Both the position numbers and the translations under genes were made by a program. The notes beneath the pieces were generated by a model. That model did no database searches, was not told where the DNA came from, and saw only the letters and a program-made list of their open reading frames with translations. A stretch of 42,887 nucleotides of DNA from an uncultured Oscillospiraceae bacterium (lineage in GTDB: Bacteria > Bacillota > Clostridia > Oscillospirales > Oscillospiraceae), in NCBI GenBank assembly GCA_947632155.1, contig CANROF010000016.1, forward strand, positions 1 to 42,887, written 5' to 3'. Below are positions 149 to 27,273 of this stretch, one piece after another. How positions within the stretch are numbered: the stretch's first letter is position 1; every line of letters begins with the position of its first letter.

Positions 149-338
149 GTCAAAAACTCAAATTCAATATTTTTTCCAAGGACATGCGCCTTGGAAAAAA
201 TTCCTCTTGTCGCACAAGTGCCGCCTGCGGCGGCGCGCAGGGCGACAGCAGGGAAATTTTTCTGAATTCCGCAGAATTCAGAAAAATTTCCCGCACGTTC
301 CCCCTTGTCGGAAAAGCCCGCCAGGGCTTTTCGACAGC
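149..338 (-). repeat. Structured repeat element, copy A
   Basis: One of five homologous intergenic elements (others at 5044, 12061, 25457, 27016). Read leftward from the adjacent stop codon at 339, it has hairpin I (GTCGAAAAGCCC pairing with the GGGCTTTTCC side), a spacer containing GGGGGAACGTGCGGGAAA, a long hairpin II around TGAATTCTGCGGAATTCA, an outer stem closed by GTCGC/GCGAC enclosing a GCCGCC/GGCGGC hairpin, and hairpin III with arms TTTTTTCCAAGG and CCTTGGAAAAAA. It ends with a conserved AT-rich tail. It directly abuts the stop codon of the toroid protein gene and lies before the lyxose isomerase gene. Confidence 0.85.
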
Positions 339-1973
339 TCACGGGCGTATCGAGATAACGCGCTTGAAGGGGGTGTAGTCGGTGAGGTACACCGTGGCGG
401 CGCCGGGGGTCTTGGCCTCGCTGTCCTCCTTGCCCTGGGTGAAGTGGTGGAGGCCGAAGGCCGGGCCCACCTCCATGGAGGACACGGGGTTGGACACGGT
501 AAAATAGGAATCCCGCAGCACCAGCACTTCGTCGCCGTGGACGGGCATGGTCATGTGCTCGTTGGAGATGCGGTCGATGCCCTCAAAGGCCAGCTCCACC
601 CGCCAGGGGGCGCCCCGGACGCCGGAGGTTTCGATCTCCAGGTCGATGCCGTTCTCCGTCTCCCGGACGGCGATGTCGATGTCCATGTCGGGCCCTAACT
701 TCTTTTTCCGGGAGGCGTTGTCCATCTTCCACCAGTCGGAGGTGGCGGGCTTTTCGTCAAAGGGCAGGTAGTACCAGCCGCGCATCGTCTCGTGGAGGCG
801 GAAGGAGCCGTCCTCCCCCATCTCCATGCGCTCCGCCTTGAAGGCCCGGTGCTCGCAGAAGCTCCCGCCCAGCTTCACCGCCAGCTTGACGCTGCCGTTG
901 TGGACGTAGAGGAAATCGGACTTGTCCCGCATGACGGTGTAGGTCCAGCTCCCCCGCCGGACCCGGGCGATGCCGGAGTCGGGATAGAAAGCGCGGTAGC
1001 GCTCCGGCGTGCCGCAGCCGTCCCACTCCAGGTCGATGAGCTCCGGGCGGAGCATGTACTGCATGAGGAATTGGGGAGATAAGAGGCGCTTTTCCTCCAC
1101 CACCTTGAATATGTAGTTCGCCATGGACAGAAATTCGGGGATATTGTACTTCGCCCCTAAGTAGAGATACGCCCAGTAGTAGCTGTCCGGATAGACCCGC
1201 CGGTCCTTGTCAAAGCGGGTGGAGTTGGCGGTGAAGATGGTGTCGTCCGGCTCCCAGTAGGTCAGCATCATCCGCAAATTCCGGATGACGTGCTGCTCGT
1301 AGGACGGGTCCCCCAGGGCCTGGGCCAGGAGGAGCATGGCGTCGTTGTTGACGCCGTTGTAGTTCCCGGCGCTCTTTTCGGAGTACTCCCCGTCGGCGTT
1401 GCAGTCGATGCCCTCCTTGAGGTAGCCGAAGGCCGCCTCGGTGAGGTCCTCTTCCCCGTAGAGCCTCCCGCACTCGGCCAGGATCGAGGCGATGGCCCAG
1501 CGGTGGTTGGGGGTGTGGAAGCCGCCCTCCAAAAGTCCCCGGCCGCCCCGGTGGAGGATGGCGTCCATTTTCTCAAAAAGCGTCCGCTCCTCCGCCGTGA
1601 GCTCCCCCCGGGAGGCCAGGTAATTTCTGGCGGGCAGGATGATGCCCACGCAGAAGGCCGTGTCCGGGGCGGAGAAGAAATTGCAGGTGATGTAGTCGAA
1701 AAGGCCGTTTTCGTGCTGGGTGGAGGCGGCGAAGTCAAGCCCCCGGACCATGGCCGCGTACAGCGTCCCGTCGCGGTAGAGCCGGGACTCCGGATTTAAA
1801 TACACCGCGGCCATGTCCGCCACGCAGTAGAGGGTGTGCTTTTGCATGTACACCCCGTCGGGCATCACGAAGGCGCCGTACCAGGGGGAGGCGCTGTCCG
1901 TGTTTTGCGTTTTGAGCTCCCGCAGGGCACGAGTCTCCGTGTCCCGGAGCATACGCTGATAGTGAGTTCTCAT
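339..1973 (-). CDS. Putative heparinase II/III-like (alpha/alpha) toroid polysaccharide-degrading protein
   Basis: A 544-residue protein without a signal peptide. The first ~320 residues are helix-rich with repeated aromatic patches (for example TPNHRWAIASILAECGRLY near 155-175 and SYYWAYLYLG near 265), as in the (alpha/alpha)n toroid of heparinase II/III-like lyases. From about 330 to the end it is beta-rich (GIARVRRGSWTYTVMRDKS onward), like the lyase beta-sandwich domain. I infer an intracellular lyase or glycan hydrolase acting on uronic-acid oligosaccharides; the exact CAZy family and the catalytic residues were not recognised. Start ATG 1973 follows an AAGGAGAAG ribosome site. It sits 64 bp after the GH38 gene and carries repeat copy A directly at its stop. 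Confidence 0.55.
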   Translation of the reverse strand: MRTHYQRMLRDTETRALRELKTQNTDSASPWYGAFVMPDGVYMQKHTLYCVADMAAVYLNPESRLYRDGTLYAAMVRGLDFAASTQHENGLFDYITCNFFSAPDTAFCVGIILPARNYLASRGELTAEERTLFEKMDAILHRGGRGLLEGGFHTPNHRWAIASILAECGRLYGEEDLTEAAFGYLKEGIDCNADGEYSEKSAGNYNGVNNDAMLLLAQALGDPSYEQHVIRNLRMMLTYWEPDDTIFTANSTRFDKDRRVYPDSYYWAYLYLGAKYNIPEFLSMANYIFKVVEEKRLLSPQFLMQYMLRPELIDLEWDGCGTPERYRAFYPDSGIARVRRGSWTYTVMRDKSDFLYVHNGSVKLAVKLGGSFCEHRAFKAERMEMGEDGSFRLHETMRGWYYLPFDEKPATSDWWKMDNASRKKKLGPDMDIDIAVRETENGIDLEIETSGVRGAPWRVELAFEGIDRISNEHMTMPVHGDEVLVLRDSYFTVSNPVSSMEVGPAFGLHHFTQGKEDSEAKTPGAATVYLTDYTPFKRVISIRP

Positions 1974-2037
1974 AGGGTCTTCTCCTTGCGAATAACGCGA
2001 AAAATCGCGAAATTTATGTGAATAATACGGATTCTTA

Positions 2038-5010
2038 TCACTCTAAAAGTAAAATCAGGGTCTTTACCTCAAAGGCCCCGAAGCGGAGGCGCAGGGGCTC
2101 TCCCATTGGGACCTCCGCCGGGCGCTCCTCCAGCATGTCCGTCTCCAGGACGCCCCGGACGCCGCTCCCCAGGTCAAACGCGGCCTCAGCAGCCTCCCCC
2201 AGGGCCTCGTAGACCCGGGCCAGGACGGCCCGGGGGTATGTATCCGCGGGCTTTAAGGTGTCCACGAGGATGTTTTTCTGCCGGGGGACGAGGATGGGCC
2301 GCTGGACGGTCCCCGCGGGGGCCAGGACGGTTGGCTCGTTGAGCTCCAGAGCCTGCCGCACCGTGCCGCTGTCCCGGAAGGGCCCCTCAAAGGGGTAAAA
2401 GGCGTAGGTGAATTCCTGCTCCCCCCGGTCGGCGTTCATGTCCGGGGCCATGGGCGCCCGGAGAAGCGTCAGGCGAATGTCCCCGCCCAGGACGCTGACG
2501 CCGTATTTGCAGTCGTTGAGCACCGCCGCGCCGTGGCCGCCGTCCTCCACCGCCGTGAAGCGCTGGTTGCTGACCTCGTAGCGGTCCCGGTCGGCCTGCC
2601 GGGAACGGTGGGTGGGGCGCTTTATGAGGCCGAACTGTATCTCCTGGATGGCCTCGCCGGTCCGGACGTCCACGGGGAAGGAGACTTTCAGGAGCTTATG
2701 GCGCTCCTGCCAGTGGAGCTTCGTGATGAAGTCCACTCTCCGGGCGTCGTTCCCCAGCCACACGGTCTGGCAGAGCCGCGACCGGCCCAGGATTCGCTCC
2801 ACCGCCAGGCCCGCGCCCTCCGGCGTGCGAATGGGCGCGATCCGGGCCTCCGCGGAGAGCTCCACCGGGAGATTTTCGTACATGCTGCCGATCTCCCAGG
2901 CGTCGTAGGCGGAGTTCACGTCCTTGAACATGAGAAATTCGTTGCCGGGGGCGGCAAGAAATTCCCGCTCCGAGCCGGCGAGCTTCACGCTCACAAGACG
3001 CCCCAGCCTGTCCACGCGGCAGGTGAGGGCCGAATTGCGAAGCACATAATACTCCGTCTCCGGGAAATAGTCAACCTCTGCCGGGGAAGAATTTTTCACC
3101 TCCCCGCGGGCCCGGGCGCAGCCCTGGGCCGGGACGGCGACGCCGTTTACCCGGCGCTCCCACCCCAAGTGGTTGCACAGGACCGGGTCCTCCCCCGGGT
3201 CCCCCAGGAGCCGCCGCAGGAGGGCGGCGCAGCCGCGCTCCACCTCGGAAAGCTCCCGCTCCGCCCGTTCATGGACCCGGGCGATGGACGCCCCGGCGGC
3301 GATGTCGTGGAATTCGTTGAAAAGGAGCTTCTTCCAGAGCCCCTCCAGCTCCCGCCGGAGCTCCCCGGGGACCTCCGCCCCGGCGTAGAGCCTCTGGGCC
3401 ATGTGGTACTCCACGGCCTTCAGGGCGGCCTCGGCCTTTCGTATCCCCCGCTTGGTCCGGGCCTGGGCCGTCAGCGTCCCCCGGTGCCACGCCAGATACA
3501 GCTCCCCGCGAAAGACCTCCCGGGTCCCGGTCTGGCGCTGAAAAAAGCGGACGGGGCTCTCCGGGCGGCAACGGGGCGCGCCCTCCAGGTCCCGGCAGCG
3601 CCTCTCCGTCTCCGCCATCTCGCGGGTGGGACCGCCGCCGCCGTCGCCGTAACCGTAGGGGTAGAGGAACGCGCCGATGTCCCGCTGTACCCGGTCCCGC
3701 TCCCAGCGGTCGATGAGATCCCCGGGGGAGAAGACGGCGTTGTTCTTCTTAAAAAGATGCGACAGCACCCGGCTGCCGTCCGGCCCCTCCCACCAGAAGA
3801 CGTTGTAGGGGAAGGGCTCCGCCTCCGGGTCCTGGCGGGTGAGCTTCTGGGTGGCGAAATACCGGACGCCGCACTTTTTCATGATCTGCGGCAGCGCCGC
3901 GGAGAAGCCGAAGGTGTCCGGCATCCAGGCCATCACCGACTCCGCCCCCAGCGTCTCCCGGAACCAGCGGCGGCCCAGGACAAACTGGCGCACTAAGCTT
4001 TCGCCGGAGGGGATGTTGGTGTCGCACTCCACCCACATGGCACCCTCGGGGTAAAAGCGCCCCTCCGCGGCGGCGGCCCTGACCCGGTCCCAGAGGTCCG
4101 GGTAATACGCCCGCAGCCACTCCAAAATAGGCGGCTCGCACAGGAGAAAGCGGTAGTCCCCGTACTCCTCCATGAGGGCGAGCTGATTTGCGTAGGTCCT
4201 GGCGGCCTTGCGGACCGTCTCCTCCACGGGCCACAGCCACGCCAGGTCCAGGTGCGACTGGCCAAAGACCGTGAATTCCGGCGCGGTGGACCCGTTTTTG
4301 CACTTCAGGAGCGGCGTCAGGACCTCCCCGGCCCTTTTGACGCTCTCCGTCAGCTCCGGCTCCGGAAGCTCGAAGTCCGCAAGGTATGTAAATTCCTTCA
4401 GCCCCGCGACGATCTTTTCCGCCCGGAGGCTCCGCTCCGGGAGCTTTTTTGCCAGCTCCCAGAGGGCCGCGTAGTCCATGTAGACCTGAAAAACGTCCTC
4501 GTTCCAGAGGCCAAAACGGGAGGGGCCCACCGTCGCCTGGGGCCCCTCCGGCTCCGGGACGGTCGCCTCTCCCCACGCCGCGGGGCCCGCGTCCTCCCGG
4601 CGCGGGCCGTGGCCGGCGTAGCACTCCGCCGCGATCTCAAAGCGCTCCCCGGGGACGGCGCGGCGGGTGAGGGTGATGAATTTGTGGTGCTTGTCCAGGG
4701 ACCCGGCCTCCCGGCCGTTGACCCACACCAGCATCTCCTCCCCCACCCCGAGAGAGAGGACCAGCCGCCCTCCGGCCAGCGCTTCCGGGACGGTGACGCG
4801 GGTACGGAACCACCCGTACTCCCACATCCGCCCCCATTTTGTGCCCACCGGCGCCGGGGCGAAGCTCCGCCCCAGGGCCTCGGAGAGGGAAAGGCGCCGG
4901 AATGTTGTGAAATACTCCGTCTCCGCCTCCCCCCAGGGGCGAAAGAGGTGCTTCGGGAACTGCTCCGCCCAAATCCGAAGCCGATCCTCCCACTGTCTGC
5001 CGATATTCAT
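2038..5010 (-). CDS. Alpha-mannosidase, glycoside hydrolase family 38
   Basis: A 990-residue GH38 alpha-mannosidase, a usual length for bacterial members and without a signal peptide. The zinc-binding motif HLDLAWLWP begins at H253, followed by MWVECDTNIPSGES near 340 and WMPDTFGFS, in which D365 corresponds to the catalytic nucleophile. The C-terminal half is the beta-rich domain of the family. The reading frame is open further upstream to 5109, but that extension translates repeat element B. The ATG at 5010 preceded by GGGAGG at about 5020-5026 is the real start. It would hydrolyse alpha-mannosides in the cytoplasm. It follows iolB with repeat copy B in between, and the lyxose/mannose isomerase lies two genes downstream. 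Confidence 0.93.
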   Translation of the reverse strand: MNIGRQWEDRLRIWAEQFPKHLFRPWGEAETEYFTTFRRLSLSEALGRSFAPAPVGTKWGRMWEYGWFRTRVTVPEALAGGRLVLSLGVGEEMLVWVNGREAGSLDKHHKFITLTRRAVPGERFEIAAECYAGHGPRREDAGPAAWGEATVPEPEGPQATVGPSRFGLWNEDVFQVYMDYAALWELAKKLPERSLRAEKIVAGLKEFTYLADFELPEPELTESVKRAGEVLTPLLKCKNGSTAPEFTVFGQSHLDLAWLWPVEETVRKAARTYANQLALMEEYGDYRFLLCEPPILEWLRAYYPDLWDRVRAAAAEGRFYPEGAMWVECDTNIPSGESLVRQFVLGRRWFRETLGAESVMAWMPDTFGFSAALPQIMKKCGVRYFATQKLTRQDPEAEPFPYNVFWWEGPDGSRVLSHLFKKNNAVFSPGDLIDRWERDRVQRDIGAFLYPYGYGDGGGGPTREMAETERRCRDLEGAPRCRPESPVRFFQRQTGTREVFRGELYLAWHRGTLTAQARTKRGIRKAEAALKAVEYHMAQRLYAGAEVPGELRRELEGLWKKLLFNEFHDIAAGASIARVHERAERELSEVERGCAALLRRLLGDPGEDPVLCNHLGWERRVNGVAVPAQGCARARGEVKNSSPAEVDYFPETEYYVLRNSALTCRVDRLGRLVSVKLAGSEREFLAAPGNEFLMFKDVNSAYDAWEIGSMYENLPVELSAEARIAPIRTPEGAGLAVERILGRSRLCQTVWLGNDARRVDFITKLHWQERHKLLKVSFPVDVRTGEAIQEIQFGLIKRPTHRSRQADRDRYEVSNQRFTAVEDGGHGAAVLNDCKYGVSVLGGDIRLTLLRAPMAPDMNADRGEQEFTYAFYPFEGPFRDSGTVRQALELNEPTVLAPAGTVQRPILVPRQKNILVDTLKPADTYPRAVLARVYEALGEAAEAAFDLGSGVRGVLETDMLEERPAEVPMGEPLRLRFGAFEVKTLILLLE

Positions 5011-5043
5011 GCTCGAATCCTCCGGGAATCCCTCATTCACACA

Positions 5044-5152
5044 GTCGGAAAAAGGCCGAAAAGCCTTTTTCCGACAACATTTCGCAAAATTCAGAAAAAT
5101 TTCCCGCACGTTCCCCTTGGCATTGAAAGGCCGGAACGGCCTTTCAAGCCAG
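5044..5152 (-). repeat. Structured repeat element, short copy B
   Basis: This copy has hairpin I with changed but paired arms (GAAAGGCC/GGCCTTTC instead of GAAAGCCC/GGGCTTTC), the conserved GGGGAACGTGCGGGAAA segment and only one arm of hairpin II. After that, instead of the outer stem and hairpin III, it has a different perfect hairpin, GTCGGAAAAAGGC pairing with GCCTTTTTCCGAC (5044-5075). It begins 6 bases after the iolB stop and ends 33 bases before the GH38 start, so it is an intercistronic element in a co-directional series. Confidence 0.8.
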
Positions 5153-5158
5153 CTTCGT

Positions 5159-5938
5159 TTATTTCATTCTGGCGTCGATCCAGGCGTAGCGCTGGTCCAC
5201 GATGCGGCTGGTCCAGGGGTTTCCGGGCAGGTGGCGGATCATCCAGCAGTAGTACATGGGGTATGCCGGGGCCGTGACCTGGGGGTGTGTGACGCCCCCG
5301 GGTATGGCGGCGCAGCAGCCGTCCGTTATCTTGTACGCCTTGTCCCCCAAAAAGCACGCGCCGAAGCCCTCGGGCCGCTCGTAGCGGTAGTAGTAGACCT
5401 CCGGCTGGGGGTGGTGGTGGGGCGTGTAGCTGGACCAGCCGCCCTGGTGGTTGATGACCTCGCCGTTCACCATATTGGAGTACGGGGCGTTGGAGTAGTC
5501 AAACACCGTCCGGACGGTGCGCTCCAGCTTGCCCTCCAAAACGCCCTCACCGAAGAAGTCCTCCCGGCAGTCCTCCGGCCTATAGAACACCGCGGGGAAG
5601 GTCCGGTCGTTGGCGGTGCGCTGGATCAGCACCTCGCTCTCGGCCTCCGCCGTCACCGTGATCTCGGTGCCGCGGCAGACGTGGAGAAGGTAGGGCCCCT
5701 CCGTTATGAAGCTCTCCCTCCGCCCCCGGGCGGTGCTGCCCTCCCACCCGAAGGCGGCCTGGCCGCGAATAAGGAGCGCCGCCGTCTCTTCGCCCTCGTA
5801 GGAGAAGGCCCGCTTCTCCCCCGGGGCCATTTTGTAGACGGTGATGTCCATCATGGTGTCGTTTTTCGTGTCGCCGGACTGGGTCAGGACCTTCACGCCG
5901 TGCCCGTCAAACCGCGGGCAGGCGAATTCCCTGCTCAT
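5159..5938 (-). CDS. iolB: 5-deoxy-glucuronate isomerase
   Basis: A 259-residue IolB-family bicupin of the usual length. The C-terminal cupin carries the metal-binding stretch SSYTPHHHPQPEVYYYR near residues 168-184, followed by GGVTHPQVTAPAYPMYY near 227-243. It converts 5-deoxy-D-glucuronate into 2-deoxy-5-keto-D-gluconate, the substrate of IolC, in cytoplasmic inositol catabolism. It is the last gene of the iolC-D-E-G-B series, 12 bp downstream of iolG, with repeat copy B directly after its stop codon. Confidence 0.95.
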   Translation of the reverse strand: MSREFACPRFDGHGVKVLTQSGDTKNDTMMDITVYKMAPGEKRAFSYEGEETAALLIRGQAAFGWEGSTARGRRESFITEGPYLLHVCRGTEITVTAEAESEVLIQRTANDRTFPAVFYRPEDCREDFFGEGVLEGKLERTVRTVFDYSNAPYSNMVNGEVINHQGGWSSYTPHHHPQPEVYYYRYERPEGFGACFLGDKAYKITDGCCAAIPGGVTHPQVTAPAYPMYYCWMIRHLPGNPWTSRIVDQRYAWIDARMK

Positions 5939-5950
5939 CTCGCCGCCCCC

Positions 5951-6964
5951 TCAAAACTCGATCTCCGAGAGCTTCACGGGCCGGTGCTCGTCCAGGGACT
6001 TTTTGGCGGCGATGCCCATGAGCACGGGCATCAGCCCGTCCCGGGCGCCCACGGCGGTGTCGGTGTCGTTCTCGATGGCGTCCACAAAGCCCCGGACTTC
6101 GGTGGCGAAGGACTGCATGTAGCGCTCTAAGAAGAAGTAGAGGGGCTTTTCGCCGGTGACGCCCTCCGCGTTGCTGAGGACCACAGTGGAGGGGGTGTCG
6201 TTGGCGGTGGCGGCCATGCCCAGGGAGCCGAACACCTCCGCCCGCTGGTCGTAGCCGTAGGCGGCCCGGCGGGAGTTGTCGATGACGGCAATGGCGCCGT
6301 TTTCCATCTTCATGGTGATGACGGCGGTGTCCACGTCCCCGGCCTCGCCGATGGCCGGGTCCACCAGGACCGCGGCCTGGGTGTAGATCTCCTCCGCCTC
6401 GCACCCGGCCAAAAAGCGGACCATGTCGAAATCGTGGATGGTCATGTCGAGGAACATCCCGCCGGAGACGGCGGCGTATTCGGCGCTGGGCGGCTCCGGG
6501 TCCCGGGAGGTGATCTTAATGATGTGGACGTCCCCCACCTTGCCGTCGGTGATGGCCTTTTTCACGGCGGCGAAGTTGTGGTCGTGGCGGCGGTTGAAGC
6601 CCACCTGGTATTTGAGCCCGCTGCCCTCCAGGGCCGTCAGGACCTTTTTGATCCTGCCCAGGTCGTGGTCGATGGGCTTTTCGCAGAAGACGTGCTTGCC
6701 CGCGGCGATGGCCTCCAGGGAGATCTCCGAGTGGGTGTTGGTGGAGGAGCAGATGAGCACCGCGTCGATCTCGGGGTCATTTAAAATCTCGTGGTAGTCG
6801 GCGCAGGTGCCGCCCACGCCCATTTTAAGGAGCCACGTCCGCGTCTCCTCGCTCATATAGGGGTCCGCCACCGTCTTTATCCGGGCGTTGCGGACATAGT
6901 TGCAGATGCTCTCGGTGTGGACCTTGCCGATGCGGCCCGCGCCGATAATTCCAAGTGTTACCAT
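5951..6964 (-). CDS. iolG: Inositol 2-dehydrogenase
   Basis: A 337-residue Gfo/Idh/MocA oxidoreductase. The Rossmann motif LGIIGAGRIGKVH is at residues 3-15, CEKPIDHD (the EKP motif with the catalytic Lys) is near 95, and GFNRRHDHNF and MTIHDFDMVRFL follow. It oxidises myo-inositol to 2-keto-myo-inositol with NAD+. The ORF stays open upstream through iolE, but the ATG at 6964 is preceded by TAAGGAGGAA (6971-6980), whose TAA is the stop codon of iolE, so translation is probably coupled. It lies between iolE and iolB. Confidence 0.94.
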   Translation of the reverse strand: MVTLGIIGAGRIGKVHTESICNYVRNARIKTVADPYMSEETRTWLLKMGVGGTCADYHEILNDPEIDAVLICSSTNTHSEISLEAIAAGKHVFCEKPIDHDLGRIKKVLTALEGSGLKYQVGFNRRHDHNFAAVKKAITDGKVGDVHIIKITSRDPEPPSAEYAAVSGGMFLDMTIHDFDMVRFLAGCEAEEIYTQAAVLVDPAIGEAGDVDTAVITMKMENGAIAVIDNSRRAAYGYDQRAEVFGSLGMAATANDTPSTVVLSNAEGVTGEKPLYFFLERYMQSFATEVRGFVDAIENDTDTAVGARDGLMPVLMGIAAKKSLDEHRPVKLSEIEF

Positions 6965-6977
6965 ATAAGTTTCCTCC

Positions 6978-7877
6978 TTATAAACCGGTGTGTTCCCGGA
7001 TGAACTTTCTCGCGCGGATGGCGTACTCCAGGGGGTTAGCCCGGGCGGGGTCCTGCTCGGCCTCCACCACCATCCAGCCGGCGTAGCCGGACGCCTCCAG
7101 CGTCTCAAAGATGGGGTCAAAGTCCACGCAGCCGTCGCCGGGGATGGTGAAAGCCCCCTCACGCACGCCCTCCAAAAAGCTCAGGCGCTCTTTGCGCACC
7201 CGCTCCACCACCTCCGGGCGGATGTCCTTCAGGTGTACGTGCTTTATGCGGGAGGCGTACTTTTTCGCCATGGCGGCGGGGTCCTCGCCGCAGTAGGCGA
7301 AGTGGCCGCTGTCGAAAAGGAGGCTGACGTAGCGGGGGTCCGTGCCCTCCATGAGCCGCTCCGTCTCCGCCGCCGTCTGGACCACGGTGCCCATGTGGTG
7401 GTGAAAGGTCAGGGCCACGCCGTATTTCTCCAGGGAGTACTGCCCCAAGCGGTCGAGGCCCTTGCACAGGGCCGTCCACTCCACGTCGCTCATGACGTGC
7501 TTGCCCTCAAAGATGGGCTGTGTCTGGATGCCCTGGATGGAATAGCTCTGCTCCGAGACGCCCACCACCCTGGCGCCCATGGCGGCCAGGAAGGCCACGT
7601 GCCTGTCGAAGGCCGCCAGCGTCTCCTCGTAGGGGGCGCTTATGAGGAAGGTGGAGAACCAGGCGTTGCAGATCTGAATATTCCGCAGCTCCAGGGCGGG
7701 CTTTAAAACCGCCGGGTCCCTGGGGTACTTGTTCCCCACCTCCGAGCCCGTGAAGCCGGCCAGCGCCATCTCGCTGACGCACTGTTGGAAGGTGTTCTCG
7801 CCCCCCAGCTCCGGGAGGTCGTCGTTTGTCCAGGCGATGGGCGCGATGCCCAGCCTTACCTTGTTTTTGTCAAGCAT
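6978..7877 (-). CDS. iolE: Myo-inosose-2 dehydratase
   Basis: A 299-residue xylose-isomerase-like TIM barrel starting [19 protein letters not shown], the hallmark N-terminus of Iol[12 protein letters not shown] near 155-165, DSGHFAYCG near 190 and [10 protein letters not shown] near 213-222 supply the metal-binding residues. It dehydrates 2-keto-myo-inositol to 3D-(3,5/4)-trihydroxycyclohexane-1,2-dione. The start at 7877 has GGAGG seven to eleven bases upstream. Its stop codon overlaps the iolG ribosome site, and 13 bp separate it from iolD. Confidence 0.95.
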
Positions 7878-7890
7878 TTTGTGCCTCCAA

Positions 7891-12056: not shown

Positions 12057-12060
12057 GAAG

Positions 12061-12252
12061 TTAAAAACTCAAATTCAATATTTTTTCCGGCGGCATGTAC
12101 GTCGGAAAAAATACCTTTTGTCGCCCAAGTGTGCCCCAACGGGGCGCGCGCAGGGCGACAGCAGAAAAAAATATCTGAATTTCGCAAAATTCAGATATTT
12201 TTTCCGCACGCACCCCCTTGGCATTGAAAGCCCGTCAGGGCTTTCAAGCCAG
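12061..12252 (-). repeat. Structured repeat element, copy C
   Basis: The most divergent full copy. Hairpin III reads TTTTTTCCGGCG/CGTCGGAAAAAA instead of TTTTTTCCAAGG/CCTTGGAAAAAA. Hairpin II arms contain ATATCTGAATTT/AAATTCAGATAT. Hairpin I is GAAAGCCC/GGGCTTTC inside TTGGC/GCCAG. All arms remain paired, so the changes compensate each other. The outer stem GTCGC/GCGAC encloses a GCCCC/GGGGC hairpin. It abuts the TAG stop of the GH105 gene (12253-12255). Confidence 0.85.
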
Positions 12253-17087: not shown

Positions 17088-17091
17088 ATCC

Positions 17092-20415: not shown

Positions 20416-20432
20416 TTGTGCATATTGCACAA
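20416..20432. promoter_or_regulatory. Candidate operator TTGTGCA-TAT-TGCACAA between divergent operons
   Basis: Perfect 7-bp inverted repeat with a three-base spacer, midway between the importer promoter and the GH28 promoter. Related half-sites lie nearby: CATATTGCA at 20372-20380, the same string at 20421-20429 (49 bp apart), and its inverse TGCAATAT at 20502-20509. The TTGCACAATT string recurs at 29841-29850. The AraC protein encoded at 21901 is the natural candidate ligand, by inference. Confidence 0.55.
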
Positions 20433-20514
20433 TTTTAGACCCTCATTTTTTACATCCGCGCGATACACTAAAGTAAATTTCCATATAATTTTCATATAAG
20501 ATGCAATATTTCAG

Positions 20515-20543
20515 TTGCCATTTTAACGGCGGTGTGGTATACT
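20515..20543 (+). promoter_or_regulatory. Promoter of the GH28-AraC-aldolase operon
   Basis: TTGCCA (20515-20520), 17-base spacer, TATACT (20538-20543): a near-consensus vegetative promoter. Transcription would start near 20550, before the GGGGAGG ribosome site at 20565-20571. This excludes the in-frame upstream ATGs before 20550 as starts. Confidence 0.75.
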
Positions 20544-20578
20544 CTACCATGAAAAATATACACCGGGGAGGCCGCGAA

Positions 20579-21904
20579 ATGGACTTCAATGTGCTTGATT
20601 TCGGCGCCGCCGGGGACGGCGTCACCGTGGACACCGCCGCCATCCAGGCCGCCATCGACGCCTGCCGTGCCGCCGGGGGCGGCCGGGTCACGCTGCCCGG
20701 CGGGCATGTCTACCGCAGCGGGCTTTTGACGCTCTGCTCCGATCTGGAGCTGCGCCTGGAGATGGGCGCGGTGCTCCGGGGCAGCGACAGTCTGGAGGAC
20801 TACGTCCCCGCCGGGGCGGTCCGGGCCCCCGGCGGCCGGCCGGGGGTGCCCTCCTACGTCAACTGCGAGTACACCGGGGCGCCCTGGTGCTTCTTCCTGC
20901 GGGCGAAGGACTGCGAGAACATCGCCGTCACCGGTCCCGGGAGCATCGACGGGAACCAGGAGATCTTCTTCGGCGCCGTGACGGAGAGCCACATCGAGGG
21001 GGCCTTCTACCCCCGGGCGCCCATGCTCTTTTTGGAGAACTGCCGCCATGTCACCCTCCGGGAGGTGACGCTGACGAGGAGCGCCTTCTGGACGGTGCAC
21101 CTGGTGGGCTGCCGGGACGTGCTCATCGACGGGATACGCATCCTGAACGACCTGCGCATGGCCAACTGCGACGGCATCGACCCGGACCACTGCCGGGACG
21201 TGCGCATAGCCAACTGCCACATCCGATGCGCCGACGACTGCATCGTCTTTAAGAACACCGCCGCCGCCATGGAGTACGGCCCCTGCGAGAACATAACGGT
21301 GACCAACTGCACCCTGACCTCCACCAGCGCCGCCATCAAATTCGGCACGGAGAGCGAGGACCTTTTCCGCAATATCCTCATCGAAAACTGCGTGATAAGC
21401 CGCACCAACCGGGCCATCTCCCTCCAGCTCCGGGACAAGGGGTCCATCCGGGACGTGGCCTTCCGGAACATCGCCGTGGACACCCGGCTTTTTGACCCGG
21501 AGACTTACTGGGGCGCGGCGGAGCCCATAGCCGTCACCGTCCTGCCCCGGCACCCGGACACCCGGGTGGGCACGGTCAGCGACATCCTCTTTGACGGCGT
21601 CTTCTGCGAGTGCGAGAACGGGATCCTGCTCTACTCCCACGCCCCCGGCGGCATATCCGGCGTCACCGTCCGGGACCTCAGGCTGCGCCTGCGCTCCCGG
21701 ACAGACCGGGAGAAGGGCCGCCACGACCTGCGGCCCAATTCCATCGGCGCCGCCATGGAGCCGGGCCTGAGCTACATACGGGCCCACAACGTCCACGACA
21801 GCCGCTTCACCGGCTGCCGCTTCTCCGCCGACGGCGATATGGAGGCGCTTATGGCGGAGAGGCTCTGCCTCACGGACTGCCGGGACCTGGAGGTCGCGCC
21901 ATGA
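20579..21904 (+). CDS. Polygalacturonase-like protein, GH28
   Basis: A 441-residue right-handed beta-helix protein of family GH28 without a signal peptide. The N-terminus FNVLDFGAAGDGVTVDTAAIQ is typical. The catalytic Asp residues are D198 in MANCDGIDPDHC and D219/D220 in CADDCIVFKN. SAAIKFGTES and RTNRAISLQL match the later conserved strands, though the usual His of the SGH motif is not evident there. It would release galacturonate from oligogalacturonides inside the cell. Start ATG 20579 follows GGGGAGG by seven bases. It overlaps the AraC gene by four bases and is first in its operon. Confidence 0.9.
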   Translation: MDFNVLDFGAAGDGVTVDTAAIQAAIDACRAAGGGRVTLPGGHVYRSGLLTLCSDLELRLEMGAVLRGSDSLEDYVPAGAVRAPGGRPGVPSYVNCEYTGAPWCFFLRAKDCENIAVTGPGSIDGNQEIFFGAVTESHIEGAFYPRAPMLFLENCRHVTLREVTLTRSAFWTVHLVGCRDVLIDGIRILNDLRMANCDGIDPDHCRDVRIANCHIRCADDCIVFKNTAAAMEYGPCENITVTNCTLTSTSAAIKFGTESEDLFRNILIENCVISRTNRAISLQLRDKGSIRDVAFRNIAVDTRLFDPETYWGAAEPIAVTVLPRHPDTRVGTVSDILFDGVFCECENGILLYSHAPGGISGVTVRDLRLRLRSRTDREKGRHDLRPNSIGAAMEPGLSYIRAHNVHDSRFTGCRFSADGDMEALMAERLCLTDCRDLEVAP

Positions 21905-22833
21905 TGGTCCAGAACCTGGCGCTTTACGAGGACAAATACTATATCCGCGTCAACGAGGAGAACGACACGATATTCTATTTCTTCGACTACGACGTCCGCA
22001 GCGCCGACATAAACATGGTCTTTCAGCACTTCCACACGTTTTACGAGCTGTGCATCCCCCTCTGTCCCAGCGCCGTCCACTTCATCGAGGGCATCCCCTA
22101 TGAGATCCGGGCCTTCGACATCGTGGGCATATCCCCCAACCGGCTCCACAAGACCCAGTACCCCGCCGGGAAGCCCTGCCGGAGGCTCATCGTCCAGTTC
22201 AATCTGCCCGCCCAGGTCCCGGGCTTTTCCGACGAGTACGGGCAGCTCATGGAGATCTTCGACCGGGAGGTGCCCATTTTCCGCTTCGACCCGGAGCTCC
22301 AGAAGCACCTCTTCGGGCGGCTCAACGACATTTACAGGCTGGCGCAGAAGACCGACCCCATGCGCAACCTCATCATCCACCAGAAATTCGTGGAGTTCCT
22401 CATCCTCCTCTTCCTCAACCGGGACAGCAACATATATTCAAATGAATCGGGCCTTTCGGAGCTGGAGAAGAAGGTCTACGCCGTGGCGGGCTACATCCAC
22501 GCCCACTACCCGGAGGAGCTGTCCCTGGACAGCCTCGCCCGGGAATTCTGCATCAGCCCCAGCTACCTCTCCCACCGATTCAGCGAGGTCACGGGCTTTT
22601 CCGTCACGGACTACATCCAGATGACGCGGGTGCGGAACGTCCAGGCGCTGCTGGTCAACACCCGCATCCCCATCACCGAGGTGACCGAGCCCTGCGGCTT
22701 CAACTGCTTCTCCCAGTTCAACCGGGTATTCAGGAAGCACATCGGCATGTCTCCCTCCCAGTACCGGAAGCTCAACCAGCTCCCGGTCCCCTCCGCCGGC
22801 GAGCCCGCCCCGCCGGGACGGACGGCTAAATAA
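21901..22833 (+). CDS. AraC-family transcriptional regulator
   Basis: A 310-residue regulator with a cupin-like sensor domain (HFHTFYELCIPL near 43-54, FDIVGISPNRLHKTQYP near 76-92) and two C-terminal helix-turn-helix units at about 205-290 (LSLDSLAREFCISPSYLSHRF, then ITEVTEPCGFNCFSQFNRVFR). The unit PCGF replaces the common xxGF. The ATG at 21901 overlaps the GH28 stop (ATGA) and has GGAGG seven bases upstream. It probably senses a pectin-derived sugar and acts at the divergent regulatory region 20249-20578; TTGCACAA-like boxes there and before 29955 are candidate sites. Confidence 0.9.
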   Translation: MMVQNLALYEDKYYIRVNEENDTIFYFFDYDVRSADINMVFQHFHTFYELCIPLCPSAVHFIEGIPYEIRAFDIVGISPNRLHKTQYPAGKPCRRLIVQFNLPAQVPGFSDEYGQLMEIFDREVPIFRFDPELQKHLFGRLNDIYRLAQKTDPMRNLIIHQKFVEFLILLFLNRDSNIYSNESGLSELEKKVYAVAGYIHAHYPEELSLDSLAREFCISPSYLSHRFSEVTGFSVTDYIQMTRVRNVQALLVNTRIPITEVTEPCGFNCFSQFNRVFRKHIGMSPSQYRKLNQLPVPSAGEPAPPGRTAK

Positions 22834-22857
22834 TACGATGATTCCGGAGGTACATAT

Positions 22858-23694
22858 ATGCTTGTTTCCCTCAGAGAGATCCTGCGCCTGGCGGAGGAGC
22901 GCCAGTGTGCCGTCGGGGCCTTCAACACCACAAATCTTGAGTGCGTCCGCGCCGTCCTCGATACGGCCCGGCGCCTGGACCTGCCCGTCATCCTGAGCCA
23001 CGCCCAGGTCCGGGAGAGCGTGGCGCCGCTGGAGGTCATCGGCCCCGTGATGGTCCTGTCGGCGCAAAGGGCCCCGGTGCCGGTGTGCGTGCATCTGGAC
23101 CACTGCACGTCCCTGGACTACATGGCCCGGGCGCTGAAGCTGGGCTTCACCGGCGTCATGTACGACGGGAGCCTCCTGCCCTACGAGGAGAACGTGGAGA
23201 ACACCCGCCGGGCCGTGGCCATGGCCCGCCCCCTGGGCGCCGGGGTGGAGGCGGAGCTGGGGCAGCTCGCCCACGGGGAGGACGGCGCCGGCAACGCCGG
23301 AGGCCCGGTGTACACCGAGCCCGAGCTGGCGGTGCGCTTTGTCCGGGACACGGACATCGACGCCCTGGCCCCAAGCTTCGGCACCAGCCACGGGATATAT
23401 AGATCAAAGCCCGTGCTGGACCTGGAGCGCGTGGCCGTCATCCGGCGGCTCACCGGCCTGCCCCTGGTGATGCACGGCGGCAGCGGCGTCTCGCCGGAGG
23501 ACTACCGCACGGCCATAAAAAACGGCGTCCGGAAGATAAATTACTTCTCCTACATGTCCAACGCCGGGACCAGGGCCGTCCGGGCGCTCCTGGAGCGGGA
23601 GGACGTCACCTACTTCCACGACCTGGCCCTGACGGCGCAAAACGCCATGGCGGAGGACGTGGAAAAGGCCATGCGGGTGTTTTATAAGCTTTAA
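22858..23694 (+). CDS. Class II (zinc) aldolase of the fructose-bisphosphate/tagatose-bisphosphate/IolJ family
   Basis: A 278-residue class II ketose-bisphosphate aldolase. Zinc ligands are in VHLDHC near 79-84, GVEAELGQLAHGED near 128-141, FGTSHGIY near 176-183 and MHGGSGVSPED near 204-214; the DHAP-binding strand reads KINYFSYMS instead of the common KIN-D/T pattern. Possible substrates are 6-phospho-5-dehydro-2-deoxygluconate (IolJ), tagatose or fructose bisphosphate, or a deoxy-sugar phosphate. The window holds iolB-C-D-E-G but no other candidate aldolase, which makes the IolJ role attractive but unproven. GGAGG lies seven bases before ATG 22858; it is the third gene of the GH28 operon. 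Confidence 0.85.
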   Translation: MLVSLREILRLAEERQCAVGAFNTTNLECVRAVLDTARRLDLPVILSHAQVRESVAPLEVIGPVMVLSAQRAPVPVCVHLDHCTSLDYMARALKLGFTGVMYDGSLLPYEENVENTRRAVAMARPLGAGVEAELGQLAHGEDGAGNAGGPVYTEPELAVRFVRDTDIDALAPSFGTSHGIYRSKPVLDLERVAVIRRLTGLPLVMHGGSGVSPEDYRTAIKNGVRKINYFSYMSNAGTRAVRALLEREDVTYFHDLALTAQNAMAEDVEKAMRVFYKL

Positions 23695-23699
23695 TACGC

Positions 23700-23733
23700 A
23701 AAAACCGGGCCCGGACGCATGTCCGGACCCGGT
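23700..23733 (-). terminator. Rho-independent terminator reading leftward
   Basis: ACCGGGTCCGGAC pairs with GTCCGGGCCCGGT around a four-base loop, followed leftward by TTTTTGCG. In the rightward direction the same hairpin ends the aldolase operon but is followed by AAAGC, not T. It is therefore best for leftward transcripts coming from the BlaI gene through the element at 23807, and may act in both directions. Confidence 0.7.
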
Positions 23734-23806
23734 AAAGCTATTCAGGGGTAAAAAAATGAAAAATCGAAGCGCGGGGGCGCCGCGCTGGCGGGAGGGTCGT
23801 CCTCTC

Positions 23807-23967
23807 ATACTAATCCCTGATTAAAAACGCCAACCGAGCGGCGAGGATTTTTTGCGTCAGGCGAGGAAGACGGCGCAGAGAATACTGTATGTATTGTCAA
23901 GCCGTCTGACGAAGCATGGCGCAAAAAAGACCGTCGCGAATTGGAGTTTTTGATTAGGGATTAGTAT
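23807..23967. repeat. 161-bp element with 22-bp terminal inverted repeats (MITE-like), copy 1
   Basis: The ends are inverted: the left one starts ATACTAATCCCTGATTAAAA, the right one is its reverse with two differences. Inside are the hairpin-forming AATACTGTATGTATT and long imperfect inverted repeats (GGATTTTTTGCGTCAGGCGA against CGTCTGACGAAGCATGGCGC). No ORF. The right end touches the BlaI stop codon at 23967. A homologous, longer element lies in the opposite orientation at 26622. Confidence 0.75.
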
Positions 23968-24326
23968 CAATCCCAATCCCGGACGATCTGCTTTAACCGC
24001 TCGATCTGCTCCGGGCTCAGCCGTTCCCTGCCCAAAAGAGCGGCGCACAGACTCCCGGCGGAGCCGTCGTAAAACCGGTCGATGAGCTCCTCCGTCTCGG
24101 CCCGCTGTACCGTCTCCCGGGAAACCAGGGCGCGGCAGCGGAAGTTGGGCTCCTGCCGCTGGATGGCGCCCTTGTTGATGCAGCGCTTGATGAGGGTGTA
24201 GGTGGTGTTGATGTTCCACCCGTAGGCGGCGGTCATCACGTCGGAGACGTGCTTCGCGGTACACTCCCCCTCCCGCCACAGCACGTTCATGACCTTGATC
24301 TCAGATGCCTGAAGCTTGTTACTCAT
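23967..24326 (-). CDS. BlaI/MecI-family transcriptional repressor
   Basis: A 119-residue winged-helix repressor of the BlaI/MecI/CopY family, usual length. ASEIKVMNVLWREGECTAKHV at 7-27 and NINTTYTLIKRCINKGAIQRQE near 38-59 form the DNA-binding domain, and the C-terminal third is the dimerisation segment. Start ATG 24326 follows CGGAGGG. The usual partner, a BlaR1/M56 membrane peptidase, is not adjacent, so this is an orphan. A dyad lies between its own -10 and -35 boxes, suggesting autoregulation. The target genes and inducer cannot be told. Confidence 0.88.
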   Translation of the reverse strand: MSNKLQASEIKVMNVLWREGECTAKHVSDVMTAAYGWNINTTYTLIKRCINKGAIQRQEPNFRCRALVSRETVQRAETEELIDRFYDGSAGSLCAALLGRERLSPEQIERLKQIVRDWD

Positions 24327-24367
24327 TGTCCGTCCCTCCGTGATATGTTGGAAGCAATTATAAGCAT

Positions 24368-24396
24368 ATAATACCACAGTCGTATAATCCTGTCAA
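24368..24396 (-). promoter_or_regulatory. Promoter with overlapping operator dyad for the BlaI-type gene
   Basis: Leftward: TTGACA (24396-24391), 17-base spacer, TATTAT (24373-24368). Within it, 24368-24388 reads leftward ATTATAC-GACTGTG-GTATTAT, an imperfect 21-bp dyad with six of seven matching arm positions. A repressor bound here would block RNA polymerase. Confidence 0.7.
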
Positions 24397-24422
24397 GAGG
24401 GGAAATCATTTTTTGAAACCAA

Positions 24423-24509
24423 TTTTCAACGCGGAAACCACCGATTCCGCCGTAGGGGCCGCCGTCTCGGCGGCCCGTACAGCGGGATTGAGAGTTTTCA
24501 CGTTGAAAT
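24423..24509. repeat. Nested palindromic (REP-like) element
   Basis: The outer arms TTTCAACGCGGAAAC and GTTTTCACGTTGAAA enclose GATTCCGC/GCGGGATT and a central GGGCCGCC/GGCGGCCC palindrome. The same components recur at 36284-36345 and 36500-36640. It fills the gap between the aldose epimerase end and the BlaI promoter; no gene is visible in 24397-24527. Confidence 0.75.
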
Positions 24510-24527
24510 TGCGACGTTCTTTCCTGT

Positions 24528-25406
24528 TCAGGCGTTTATTCTGATGGTCCAGGTGTTTCTGTATGTCTCTCCGGGGGCGAGGCGGCGGAGGTCCGGGCGG
24601 CGCTCGAAGACCGTCAGCTCCCCGGCCTTTGCCGGGAGGGACAGCCAGGGCTCCACGCACACATAGGGCGCGTCCGTCCGGGGGGCGTGCCATATCCCCA
24701 GGTACGGCATGTCCGGGAACGTCACCGTGACGCTCCGGGGGTCCCTGTCCGTCCCCAGGGTCACCTCCCGGCACATGCCGCGAAGGACGATGGCGTCCTC
24801 GTCAAAAAGGCCGTGGCGCAAGGGCAGCGTGTCGCCGCCCACAAGGGGGAAGGGCGCCTCGGCGCCGTCCAGGAAGCACTCCGGCGTGAAGCCCACCCGG
24901 GCGGGAGCGCACTTTTCCGAAAAGCGCAGGCTGTAGTCGGTAAAGTCAAGGCCGGCCCGGAGGGGCACGTTGAAGCCCGGGTGGCCGCCCAGGCCGAAGA
25001 TCATGGGCCGGGCGTCCCGGTTCTCCACCTCATAGGTGACGGACAGGCGGCTGCCGGAGAGGGCGTAGACCACCCGGAACACAAAGTCCCTGGGGTACGC
25101 GCTCCTGGTTTCACCGTCCGAATACAGGGCCATCGTGAGGCGCTCCCCGGTATTTTCCTCCGCCGTGAAACGCGCCGTGGGGGCTATGCCGTGGATGGGC
25201 ATGGCGTACACCTGCCCGTCCAGGCTGTAGCGCCCCCCGGTGAGCCGCGCCACAAAGGGGAAAATGTTGAGCGCCCTGTCCGGCCAGTACGCCGGGTCCC
25301 CCTGCCAGAGGTATTCCGTCCCGTCCGCGCCAAGCACGGACATGAGCTGCGCCCCCAGCTCCCCCGCCGTGACGGTCAAAAGGCCGTTTTTTATGGTGTG
25401 TGTCAT
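24528..25406 (-). CDS. Aldose 1-epimerase family protein (LacX-like)
   Basis: A 292-residue galactose-mutarotase-fold protein. LNIFPFVARLTGGRY near 46-60, MPIHGIAPTARF near 69-80 (the catalytic His region), GLGGHPGFNVPL near 138-149 and YVCVEPWLSLP near 247-257 (with the family Glu) match the LacX branch. It interconverts sugar anomers in the cytoplasm; the sugar is not defined. GGAGG precedes ATG 25406. It is 50 bp beyond repeat copy D and may be cotranscribed with the aldo/keto reductase. Confidence 0.9.
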   Translation of the reverse strand: MTHTIKNGLLTVTAGELGAQLMSVLGADGTEYLWQGDPAYWPDRALNIFPFVARLTGGRYSLDGQVYAMPIHGIAPTARFTAEENTGERLTMALYSDGETRSAYPRDFVFRVVYALSGSRLSVTYEVENRDARPMIFGLGGHPGFNVPLRAGLDFTDYSLRFSEKCAPARVGFTPECFLDGAEAPFPLVGGDTLPLRHGLFDEDAIVLRGMCREVTLGTDRDPRSVTVTFPDMPYLGIWHAPRTDAPYVCVEPWLSLPAKAGELTVFERRPDLRRLAPGETYRNTWTIRINA

Positions 25407-25429
25407 ATTTCCTCCGTTTGCTCAGAGCT

Positions 25430-25447
25430 CCCCCCGCCGGCGGGGGG
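25430..25447. repeat. 18-bp perfect palindrome CCCCCCGCC/GGCGGGGGG
   Basis: It lies between repeat copy D and the epimerase ribosome site, so a leftward transcript would carry it as a G/C hairpin 24 bases before the start codon. It occupies the same place relative to copy D as the 12029-12056 hairpin does relative to copy C. Confidence 0.65.
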
Positions 25448-25456
25448 TCACAGCTT

Positions 25457-25716
25457 GTCAAAAAACTCAAATTCAATATTTTTTCCAAGGACATGTGCCT
25501 TGGAAAAAATCCCTTTTGTTTTGCGGAGTTGACGCCCGCAGGCGTCATGCAAGCGAGCAACCGCCCGTAGGGCGGCTCTTAGCGAGTCGCTGTGCGGCCC
25601 TGCGGGCCGTGCGCGGAGCAAAACAGCAGGGAAAATATTCTGAATTTCGCAAAATTCAGCGAAAATTTCCCGCACGTTCCCCTTGTCGGAAAAGCCCGTC
25701 AGGGCTTTTTCGACAG
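25457..25716 (-). repeat. Structured repeat element, copy D (long form)
   Basis: Long version with about 70 extra bases in the central multiloop: extra hairpins GACGCC/GGCGTC, CCGCCC/GGGCGG and GCGGCCC/GGGCCGT. The outer stem is TGTTTTGC/GCAAAACA instead of the TGTCGC/GCGACA of copies A, C and E, a clear compensatory change on both sides. Hairpin III is identical to that of copy E. The hairpin II arms are less well matched in this copy. It starts six bases after the aldo/keto reductase stop. Confidence 0.85.
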
Positions 25717-25722
25717 GCTCGC

Positions 25723-26568
25723 TTATTTCTGCTCCCCCAGGGGCGGGACGAACGCGGCGTAGTTGCGAAGGCGCTGTTCCGACGCGGTGAAGCAGGCCCG
25801 GCCCCGGTCGAGGGCGCGAATCTCCTCCATCTCCCCGTCCGTCAGGGAGAGATTCCGGATGTCCGTAAACTCCCGGAGCTGCGCGGCGTCCCTGGCCACC
25901 GGTATGAGCGGCCGGCCGAGCTGCAAATGCCAGCGCAGCGTCACCTGGGCGGGCGTCTTGCCGTATTTTTCCCCCAGCCTCCGCAAAAGCGGCTCCTCCC
26001 AGGGCCCCCGGTCCACGTCGCCCAGGGGGTAGGTGGGCTCCAGGACGATGCCCTCGGAGCGCAGGAAGCGCTCCAGCTCCCGGTTTTGATTATAGATGTG
26101 CGTCTCCGCCTGGACCACCGCGGGGCGGACGCGGCAGCGGCGCAGCAGCTCCTCCGTTTGACGCCGGTCGAAATTGCACACGCCGATGGCCCTGGCGCGG
26201 CCGTAGGCTACGGCGGCCTCGAGCTGCCTGTAGCCCGTGAGCCAGTTTTCCGTGGGGTGGTGGAGCAAAATGAGGTCCAGGCAGTCGTCGCCCAGCCTGG
26301 CCATGGTCCTCTCCACGGCGTCGGGCTGCTCGTAAAAGGAGGGCCACAGCTTTGTGGTGAGGAAGATCTCCTCCCGGGGCACGCCGGAGGCCCGTATCGC
26401 CCGGCCCACGGCCTTTTCGTTCATGTAGGCGTTGGCGGTGTCGATGAGCCGCACCCCGGCCCGCAGCGCCGCCAGGACCATCCCCTCCGCCTCGTCGGGC
26501 GTCAGGACAAAGGTCCCCTGGCCGATAAGCGGCATCGCGACGCCGTTCCACAGCTCCGTGTGCTCCAT
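25723..26568 (-). CDS. Aldo/keto reductase
   Basis: A 281-residue AKR TIM barrel. The catalytic tetrad is visible: Asp and Tyr in DTANAYMNEKAVG near 43-55, Lys in TTKLW near 72, His in LLHHPTEN near 101. The NADPH-binding C-terminus PLIPVARDAAQLREFTDI near 215-232 deviates from the usual IPKS motif, reading IPVARD. Start ATG 26568 keeps the normal AKR N-terminus; the open frame to 26649 is element 26622. The substrate is unknown; in this setting an aldose or a dicarbonyl is possible. It is read from a promoter at 26892-26919 that is separated from it by the MITE-like element. Confidence 0.88.
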   Translation of the reverse strand: MEHTELWNGVAMPLIGQGTFVLTPDEAEGMVLAALRAGVRLIDTANAYMNEKAVGRAIRASGVPREEIFLTTKLWPSFYEQPDAVERTMARLGDDCLDLILLHHPTENWLTGYRQLEAAVAYGRARAIGVCNFDRRQTEELLRRCRVRPAVVQAETHIYNQNRELERFLRSEGIVLEPTYPLGDVDRGPWEEPLLRRLGEKYGKTPAQVTLRWHLQLGRPLIPVARDAAQLREFTDIRNLSLTDGEMEEIRALDRGRACFTASEQRLRNYAAFVPPLGEQK

Positions 26569-26621
26569 TCCACCGCTTCCCCTCCGGGCCGGCAAACGCC
26601 GGTCCACATAATCTCCGTCTA

Positions 26622-26881
26622 ATACTAATATCCAATTAAAATAAGCCATTCGCGCCGGCCTTTTTCGCGTCGTCGTCGCTCAAGCCGCTTTACCTCGCCC
26701 TCCCTTTGGTCGGGCTCAGGCGCAGGCTTGGCTCCTCCTCTCCCCAGCGGGCTTTGCCCGCCGGGGACCCCGGCGGCGTCAGCCGCCTTGGGAATACATA
26801 CAGTATTCCCTGCGGCGTCTTCCTTGCCTGACACGAAAAATCCTCGCCGCTCGGTGTTTCATTTTAAATGAATATTAGTAT
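26622..26881. repeat. 260-bp element with terminal inverted repeats (MITE-like), copy 2
   Basis: The ends ATACTAATATCCAATTAAAA and, inverted, ATACTAATATTCATTTAAAA match. The interior is the reverse complement of copy 1 (shared GAGCGGCGAGGATTTTT, GTCAGGC-AGGAAGACG and GGGAATACTGTATGTATT segments) plus about 100 extra bases with a GCGGGCTTTGCCCGC hairpin. No ORF of its own. It lies in the presumed 5' leader of the aldo/keto reductase gene. Confidence 0.75.
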
Positions 26882-26891
26882 AACTTACATT

Positions 26892-26919
26892 ATTATACTG
26901 ATTTTGGTTAAATAATCAA
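26892..26919 (-). promoter_or_regulatory. Candidate promoter of the aldo/keto reductase
   Basis: Leftward: TTGATT (26919-26914), 16-base spacer, TATAAT (26897-26892). The leader to ATG 26568 would be about 315 bases and contain the whole element 26622-26881. A TTGTGCA half-box (leftward; 26956-26962) lies 37 bases upstream of the -35. The stretch 26882-26976 is AT-rich and otherwise empty. Confidence 0.55.
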
Positions 26920-26976
26920 GATTGCCCGGGAAATATGAATGAGATTTGACAAAAATGCACAAAAATGAATTAAAAT

Positions 26977-27009
26977 AGCCGGCAAGGGCCCTGACGGTCC
27001 TTGTCGGCT
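26977..27009. repeat. 33-bp hairpin repeat flanking element copy E (left)
   Basis: AGCCGGCAAGG, an 11-base loop, CCTTGTCGGCT: an inverted repeat that is also a direct repeat of 27278-27310, differing at one of 33 positions. The two copies bracket element E, with six and four bases between. Confidence 0.8.
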
Positions 27010-27015
27010 CAGGTT

Positions 27016-27273
27016 GTCAAAAAACTCAATTTCAATATTTTTTCCAAGGACATGTGCCTTGGAAAAAATCCCTTTTGTCGCACAAGTTGGCGCCCGCAGG
27101 CGCCATGCAAGCGAGCAACCGCCGCTATGCGGCGGCTCTTAGCGAGTCGTAGTGCCCCAACGGGGCGCGCGCAGGGCGACAGCAGGGAAGTTTTCGCTGA
27201 ATTTCGCAAAATTCAGCGAAAATTTCCCGCACGTTCCCCTTGTCGGAAAAGCCCGTCAGGGCTTTTTCGACAG
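27016..27273 (-). repeat. Structured repeat element, copy E (long form)
   Basis: Long form like copy D, with extra hairpins GGCGCC/GGCGCC, CCGCCGC/GCGGCGG and GCCCC/GGGGC inside the outer stem TGTCGC/GCGACA. Hairpin II arms are TTTTCGCTGAATTT/AAATTCAGCGAAAA. That core differs from copies A and C yet is paired. It follows the DUF3842 stop codon after the 33-bp hairpin repeat. Confidence 0.85.

Follow-up and report, generated by a model that had tools for sequence, protein, structure and literature searches.

What placed a family of strongly folding repeats directly after stop codons in an uncultured Oscillospiraceae bacterium, and does their pairing mean that they act as RNA? The stretch of DNA analysed here (the window, 42,887 nt) carries five such repeats, which the first-pass annotation had read as a mobile, selected RNA module of 3' ends or intercistronic regions. 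Our analysis indicates that the family is a MITE located in terminator hairpins and probably moved by an IS1182-type transposase, a reading to which we assign a probability of about 0.9. At the sequence level, this reading is supported by the element ends, the duplications, the partner family and the target preference.

The repeats were present in the sequence at the places first described. Two of their boundaries were shifted, since the copies noted at 25457 and 27016 begin at terminal repeats at 25451 and 27010. The copies in the window and the parts of copy 5 are as follows.

143-338, plus strand: element copy 1, with the 5' end CAGCGCGTCAAAAAC and the stop codon of a minus-strand gene as its 3' limit.
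5044-5152, plus strand: element copy 2, a fragment with half of hairpin II, the linker and hairpin I (older B-type end).
12060-12252, plus strand: element copy 3, with an older B-type 3' end (TTGGCAT..AAGCCAG).
25451-25719, plus strand: element copy 4, with the 5' terminal repeat CAGCTTGTCAAAAAAC and an extra multiloop module.
26977-27009, no strand assigned: left-hand hairpin of the pair that forms the target site duplication of copy 5.
27010-27277, plus strand: element copy 5, complete, with the terminal repeats CAGGTTGTCAAAAAAC ... TTTTTCGACAGGTTG.
27037-27069, plus strand: hairpin III of copy 5, which holds covarying pairs in the family alignment.
27076-27181, plus strand: outer stem and variable multiloop of copy 5, TGTCGC (27076-27081) / GCGACA (27176-27181).
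27185-27228, plus strand: hairpin II of copy 5, with the majority of the covarying pairs.
27241-27272, plus strand: hairpin I of copy 5, which overlaps the 3' terminal inverted repeat.
27278-27310, no strand assigned: right-hand hairpin of the pair around copy 5, called terminator-like in a consensus scan.

The two hairpins bracketing copy 5, which the first-pass annotation had not noted, are 33 bp each and 97% identical, and copy 5 is the sole copy in the window with a target duplication; none was recognised in the flanks of copies 1-4. Two copies were folded (140-345 and 27010-27280, gene strand), and both proved much more stable than dinucleotide shuffles (z of -7.4 and -8.1). Not all five repeats have the full architecture first ascribed to them: copy 2 is only a fragment, joined to an unrelated hairpin at about 5044-5077 and without the outer stem, hairpin III and AT tail. 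The extra multiloop module in copies 4 and 5 (about 25550-25590 and 27105-27150) reads AAGCGAGCAACCGCC ... GGCGGCTCTTAGCGAGTCG. Similar modules occur at C6:37142 and C87:40632 in the same genome, and partly in the phage record MT837196, whose one partial match covers 24% of the query and lies at this module. The window also holds a GC-rich palindromic repeat family (24435-24499 and 36279-36808, e.g. GGGCCGCCGTGGGCGGCGGCCCGTACGG) in several direct and inverted copies.

The family is abundant in its own genome. With a 190-base copy as the query, a first look returned 212 candidates; the 40 that were scored each had E < 1e-55. The linker GGGGAACGTGCGGGAAA, allowing up to two mismatches, occurred 112 times (50 forward, 62 reverse), while its reversed control gave 0. 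BLAST analysis of 832,823 bases (40 stretches and the window) found 71 clusters, complete and partial, corresponding to 1.45% of the sequence; these include at least four that are not separate copies, as C6:37142 and C87:40632 contain the inserted module only, C15:2461 and C15:2529 form one copy, and C1:77434 is a single hairpin. By extrapolation from these 833 kb, the genome would contain about 200 copies. The element was matched in 28 of the 99 genomes searched (own included), namely 25 of the 34 genomes of its genus (strongly in 22 and by short matches in 3) and 3 genomes from outside the genus, by short matches. An exact 27-base core pattern was found in 18 stretches among the GTDB genomes searched, all of them uncultured Oscillospiraceae MAGs labelled 'Lapin', a label that we read as rabbit origin. 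The plasmids and E. coli genomes searched gave no element match, and one exact 27-base pattern was not matched in viral contigs.

Some copies are truncated or altered. The fragments at C2:4501 and C30:30980 share a breakpoint in hairpin III (ACATG), beyond which both run on into one and the same unrelated sequence. On C2, a reading frame (L082, 4486-5090) that by eye is sigK-like, resembling a sporulation sigma factor over its N-terminal half, stops abruptly beside an element fragment, and the gene is possibly interrupted. At C1:73264 and C42:11300, older copies carry an unrelated terminator-like hairpin in place of hairpin I.

Complete copies are mostly about 190-260 bp long and contain no transposase gene. 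With the element ends defined as CAG...CTG, 48 of 85 copies were two-ended and 37 failed the two-end patterns; both inverted terminal repeats were within one mismatch in 35 of the 48. Terminal repeats were not recognised by eye in the older B-type copies. Direct repeats flanked 23 of the 48 two-ended own-genome copies, compared with 0.73% of 2,880 mismatched flank pairs, and a stricter score retained 14 of 48 and none of the mismatched pairs. Fifteen of these 23 repeats are whole hairpins, 12 by the stem rule of our script (20-34 nt) and 3 by eye (29-33 nt); the other 8 are short (7-12 nt). The flank-repeat score gave no duplication for 25 of the 48. In an alignment of 30 own-genome copies, the adjoining hairpin was present on both sides in many. 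The family thus combines the features of a MITE: short length, no transposase gene, terminal inverted repeats and target site duplications. At one site, L005, the flanking hairpins agree except in the loop, which is inverted between them.

A copy in another genome (L041, G025) was inserted in hairpin I of an older copy and has GGCCGCTTTGCGGCC on each side; the unoccupied form of this target hairpin is present on contig C1 of the window's own genome. Of 29 genus loci compared at the 3' end of one conserved gene, two carry the element, each in a different orientation, and it was undetected at the other 27 (a count that excludes the weak match L266 and in which L238 and L263 cover 74 and 303 of the region's 425 bases). 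A loose rule recognised hairpins at all but one of these loci (28 of 29). Since these hairpins differ among species, the loci are not exact empty alleles. The two genomes with the present family at this site are G000 and G020, while G027 (L258) has there a different element of about 200 nt between two copies of the hairpin GAGCACACCGTTTCCGATGTGCTC; its end, TTTTTGTCTACAGTCTG, resembles by eye that of the insertion sequence subtype L116. For window copy 5, the neighbours were not syntenic in the loci inspected, which gave no orthologous empty site, and a second gene (C10:11547) gave no clean empty-site case among the matches listed.

A candidate partner of the element was identified in the same genus. 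The family PF13751 was found in 14 of 34 genus genomes, and both ends were seen for seven insertion sequences, five of which end in CAGNYTGTCAAAAA and two (L105 and L116) in CAGNCTGTNGACAAA. The ends are near-identical to those of the element in five of the seven; chosen representative ends differ from the two element ends at 1 and 2 of 16 bases. The L109 transposase belongs to NCBIfam NF033551, the IS1182 family (378.7 bits; cut-off 270), and carries Pfam DDE_Tnp_1_6 and DUF772. Around all seven insertion sequences, a palindrome of 21-31 bp is exactly duplicated (for L109, our script counted two mismatched positions within the palindrome). The L109 insertion lies in TGGGAATACATACAGTATTCCCT, a target that is unoccupied at position 26789 of the window. 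This palindrome lies in a second dispersed inverted-repeat family (window 23807-23911 and 26777-26881), which has 80% complementary arms, the ends TACTAATATCCAATTAAA / TTTAAATGAATATTAGTA and related copies on other contigs.

Relatives of the transposase (E<=1e-10) were found in 11 of 22 element-rich genomes and in none of the remaining 12 genomes of the genus (p 0.003), although four of the 11 positive genomes (G002, G004, G020 and G032) contain only relatives of 36-49% identity. A matching-type transposase was absent from the search hits in 11 of the 22 element-rich genomes, including the MAG of the window, whose own IS1182 hits are 27-28% identical and belong to a different subgroup with the ends GGGGCTGTGAAAA. 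Repeated insertion sequences may assemble poorly in these fragmented MAGs, and loss of the autonomous partner from element-rich genomes is possible. No counterpart of the element core was recognised by eye near the insertion-sequence ends, so that the element is no plain deletion derivative. The second IS1182 subgroup, with the ends GGGGCTGTGAAAA, was seen at L099, L100, L113, L120 and L127. By eye, L100 has no obvious target duplication, and L113 occupies the place of the hairpin expected beside the element, as in the stem-loop replacement of IS1272. These sites suggest that hairpin duplication and stem-loop replacement may coexist.

The distribution of the element relative to genes, called with a home-made gene caller, agrees with terminators as the target. 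Among gaps of at least 40 nt, elements were held by 24 of the 65 between convergent genes, 36 of the 228 between co-directional genes and 2 of the 73 between divergent genes, which is expected if terminators are targeted. The nearest stop codon facing the element was at a median distance of 33 nt, and within 100 nt for 58 of the 71 clusters. Insertion into terminator hairpins explains the location after stop codons, previously taken as a sign of an RNA module. All five window copies lie just after the stop of a minus-strand gene, as described, but the common orientation is not universal in the genome: between co-directional genes, 27 clusters have the orientation seen in the window and 8 the opposite (p 0.002). 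Nor is the setting between co-directional genes general, as 26 of the 71 clusters lie between convergent and 2 between divergent genes (p 5e-6), with 6 more at stretch edges and 2 overlapping gene calls. Complete copies alone gave similar biases (orientation 18:6, p 0.02; convergent to divergent 18:1, p 5e-5), as did the set without the four non-separate clusters (26:8, p 0.003; 23:2). Insertion into symmetric hairpins would not by itself produce the bias in orientation seen between co-directional genes, which may reflect later selection.

Three other accounts of the repeats were weighed against this evidence. The hairpin pairs beside the element could be independent tandem terminators and not target duplications, as terminator-like hairpins are common here and the paired hairpins differ in sequence at some sites (e.g. 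C87:20463 and L013); this is very improbable in view of the 7-12 bp duplications that are not hairpins, the exact palindrome duplications at the insertion sequences and the single-copy state of related empty sites. Mobilisation of REP/REPIN-type palindromes by a Y1 (RAYT) transposase, to which intergenic repeats rich in hairpins and a candidate RAYT-like reading frame recognised by eye on contig C30 would lend some colour, seems just as improbable. REP elements are not known to carry long target duplications or DDE-type ends; the present element has both. We give even less weight to a SINE-like retroelement copied via RNA: the duplications vary in length and some copies are truncated, but the truncations are at both ends and internal (by eye), and the inverted-repeat ends are common to a DDE insertion sequence. 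The SINE-like and RAYT/REPIN models were dropped once the inverted ends and the IS1182 partner had been found.

A further account is that of a functional RNA. In this view, the repeats are a 3'-end or intercistronic module for processing, stability, attenuation or a small RNA, selected after genes and spread by duplication. Pairing of the core was analysed in 110 unique copies, drawn from the 113 of 165 clusters that passed (68 from the own genome, 24 from genus genomes and 18 from named MAG loci), with our own tree-aware script in the style of R-scape, which is not R-scape and yields rough E-values. Nine of 25,425 column pairs covaried at E<0.05, and all nine are structural, falling in hairpins II and III and in the outer stem, while hairpin I contributed none; with the test restricted to structural pairs, 27 of 66 passed. 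The observation that the arms change and yet stay paired was thus upheld. The outcomes named by the first-pass annotation as counting against it, a lack of covariation or of any preference in position or orientation, were not what we found. The inference of a selected structure is supported as far as this significant covariation reaches, and transposition alone is no explanation for it; however, covariation cannot separate RNA from DNA folding, nor selection from the correction of either arm by its partner.

Further evidence on this account is divided. The proximity to stop codons and the orientation bias are in its favour, and each of the two copies in the scanned stretch has a promoter-like TTGTCA-16-TATTTT at its 5' end, but the second hexamer is not conserved in some relatives (by eye). 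Among 62 pairs common to both folds, read on the window plus strand (the antisense strand of the genes that adjoin the window copies), wobble cells comprised 130 G-U and 100 A-C, and columns shared by at least five sequences favoured the plus strand by 8 to 3. Rare wobble changes had no strand preference (49 G-U and 50 A-C), so an RNA function of the core stays putative; an assignment of all wobble pairs to the plus strand held only for the few widely shared columns and was rejected. Rfam gave no match at the gathering score for the whole window, and 26 weak matches at E<=1, all under the gathering score, for one 401-base stretch. As the target duplications and transposon ends demonstrate insertion, and the element was undetected at most orthologous 3' ends of the conserved gene, we consider a module of this kind, selected after genes, to be unlikely. 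The proposed role in processing, stability, attenuation or as a small RNA received no direct support from the Rfam search or the rare wobble changes, whereas the mobility of the repeats is strongly supported and can be specified as that of an IS1182-type MITE.

IS1182-family MITEs are already in print. MITEPye1 of Paracoccus yeei is reported to have 4-bp repeats and one to three (1-3) copies per chromosome (PMC11578231). Of two sets of ISMac2-related MITEs in Methanosarcina, as tabulated in PMC3852290, one has 14 copies and 4-bp repeats, the other 7 copies and none. Both kinds resemble the present element in being short and non-autonomous with IS1182-type terminal repeats, and MITEPye1 also prefers intergenic sites and has a predicted RNA fold (PMC11578231). 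The present element, as compared with these descriptions, is distinguished by its approximately 200 copies, its whole-hairpin duplications and its covarying multi-helix core. BOX, RUP, ERIC, Correia and QMITE2 are likewise high-copy, mostly intergenic, strongly folding and short; they are different elements, set apart here by description only, and the consulted part of the review that treats them (PMC10969869) does not mention whole-terminator duplication.

The closest parallels in target choice are IS1272 and TnSha1, also of the IS1182 family, which recognise stem-loops, often terminators, by structure and not by sequence (PMC5678879, PMC4923244). In contrast to the present element, they are reported to delete the stem-loop wholly or partly and not to duplicate it. 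Here, the hairpin was duplicated in 15 of 48 copies and the palindrome in all seven insertion sequences, which is not the replacement of the IS1272 type but matches the hypothetical pathway b described in PMC5678879. In the portions consulted of the open-licence literature, we recognised neither the present element nor whole-hairpin duplication by an IS1182 element.

We therefore propose, as the mechanism for the IS1182-driven MITE, that an IS1182-type transposase would act in trans on the element and that the 3' ends of the element would join the 5' feet of a cruciform, an outcome corresponding to that same pathway. Insertion would leave a gene its terminator and add a second, and such insertions should be nearly harmless and able to accumulate after stop codons. 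The core, with its three hairpins and multiloop, has evolved under a pairing constraint or by arm-templated correction. Our best guess is that it helps the element to propagate itself and affects the 3' ends of transcripts only incidentally. A combination, in which the core is a genuine structured RNA that moves by IS1182 ends and has been placed after a large share of the approximately 200 sites, with genes keeping doubled terminators and orientation sorted later by selection, appears doubtful as a whole. If it were true, a selfish route would have led to a genome-wide family of common 3' ends.

This study also bears on how repeats of this type are interpreted. A position after stop codons and covariation can accompany an insertion preference, and an RNA regulator is not thereby demonstrated. 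With its many copies, the family offers natural material for the question of why helices in the core of a MITE continue to covary. Furthermore, the exact palindrome duplications, at all seven insertion sequences and in many MITE copies, document an outcome that was only hypothetical in a 2017 paper, and suggest how a transposon may colonise terminators cheaply: by doubling them.
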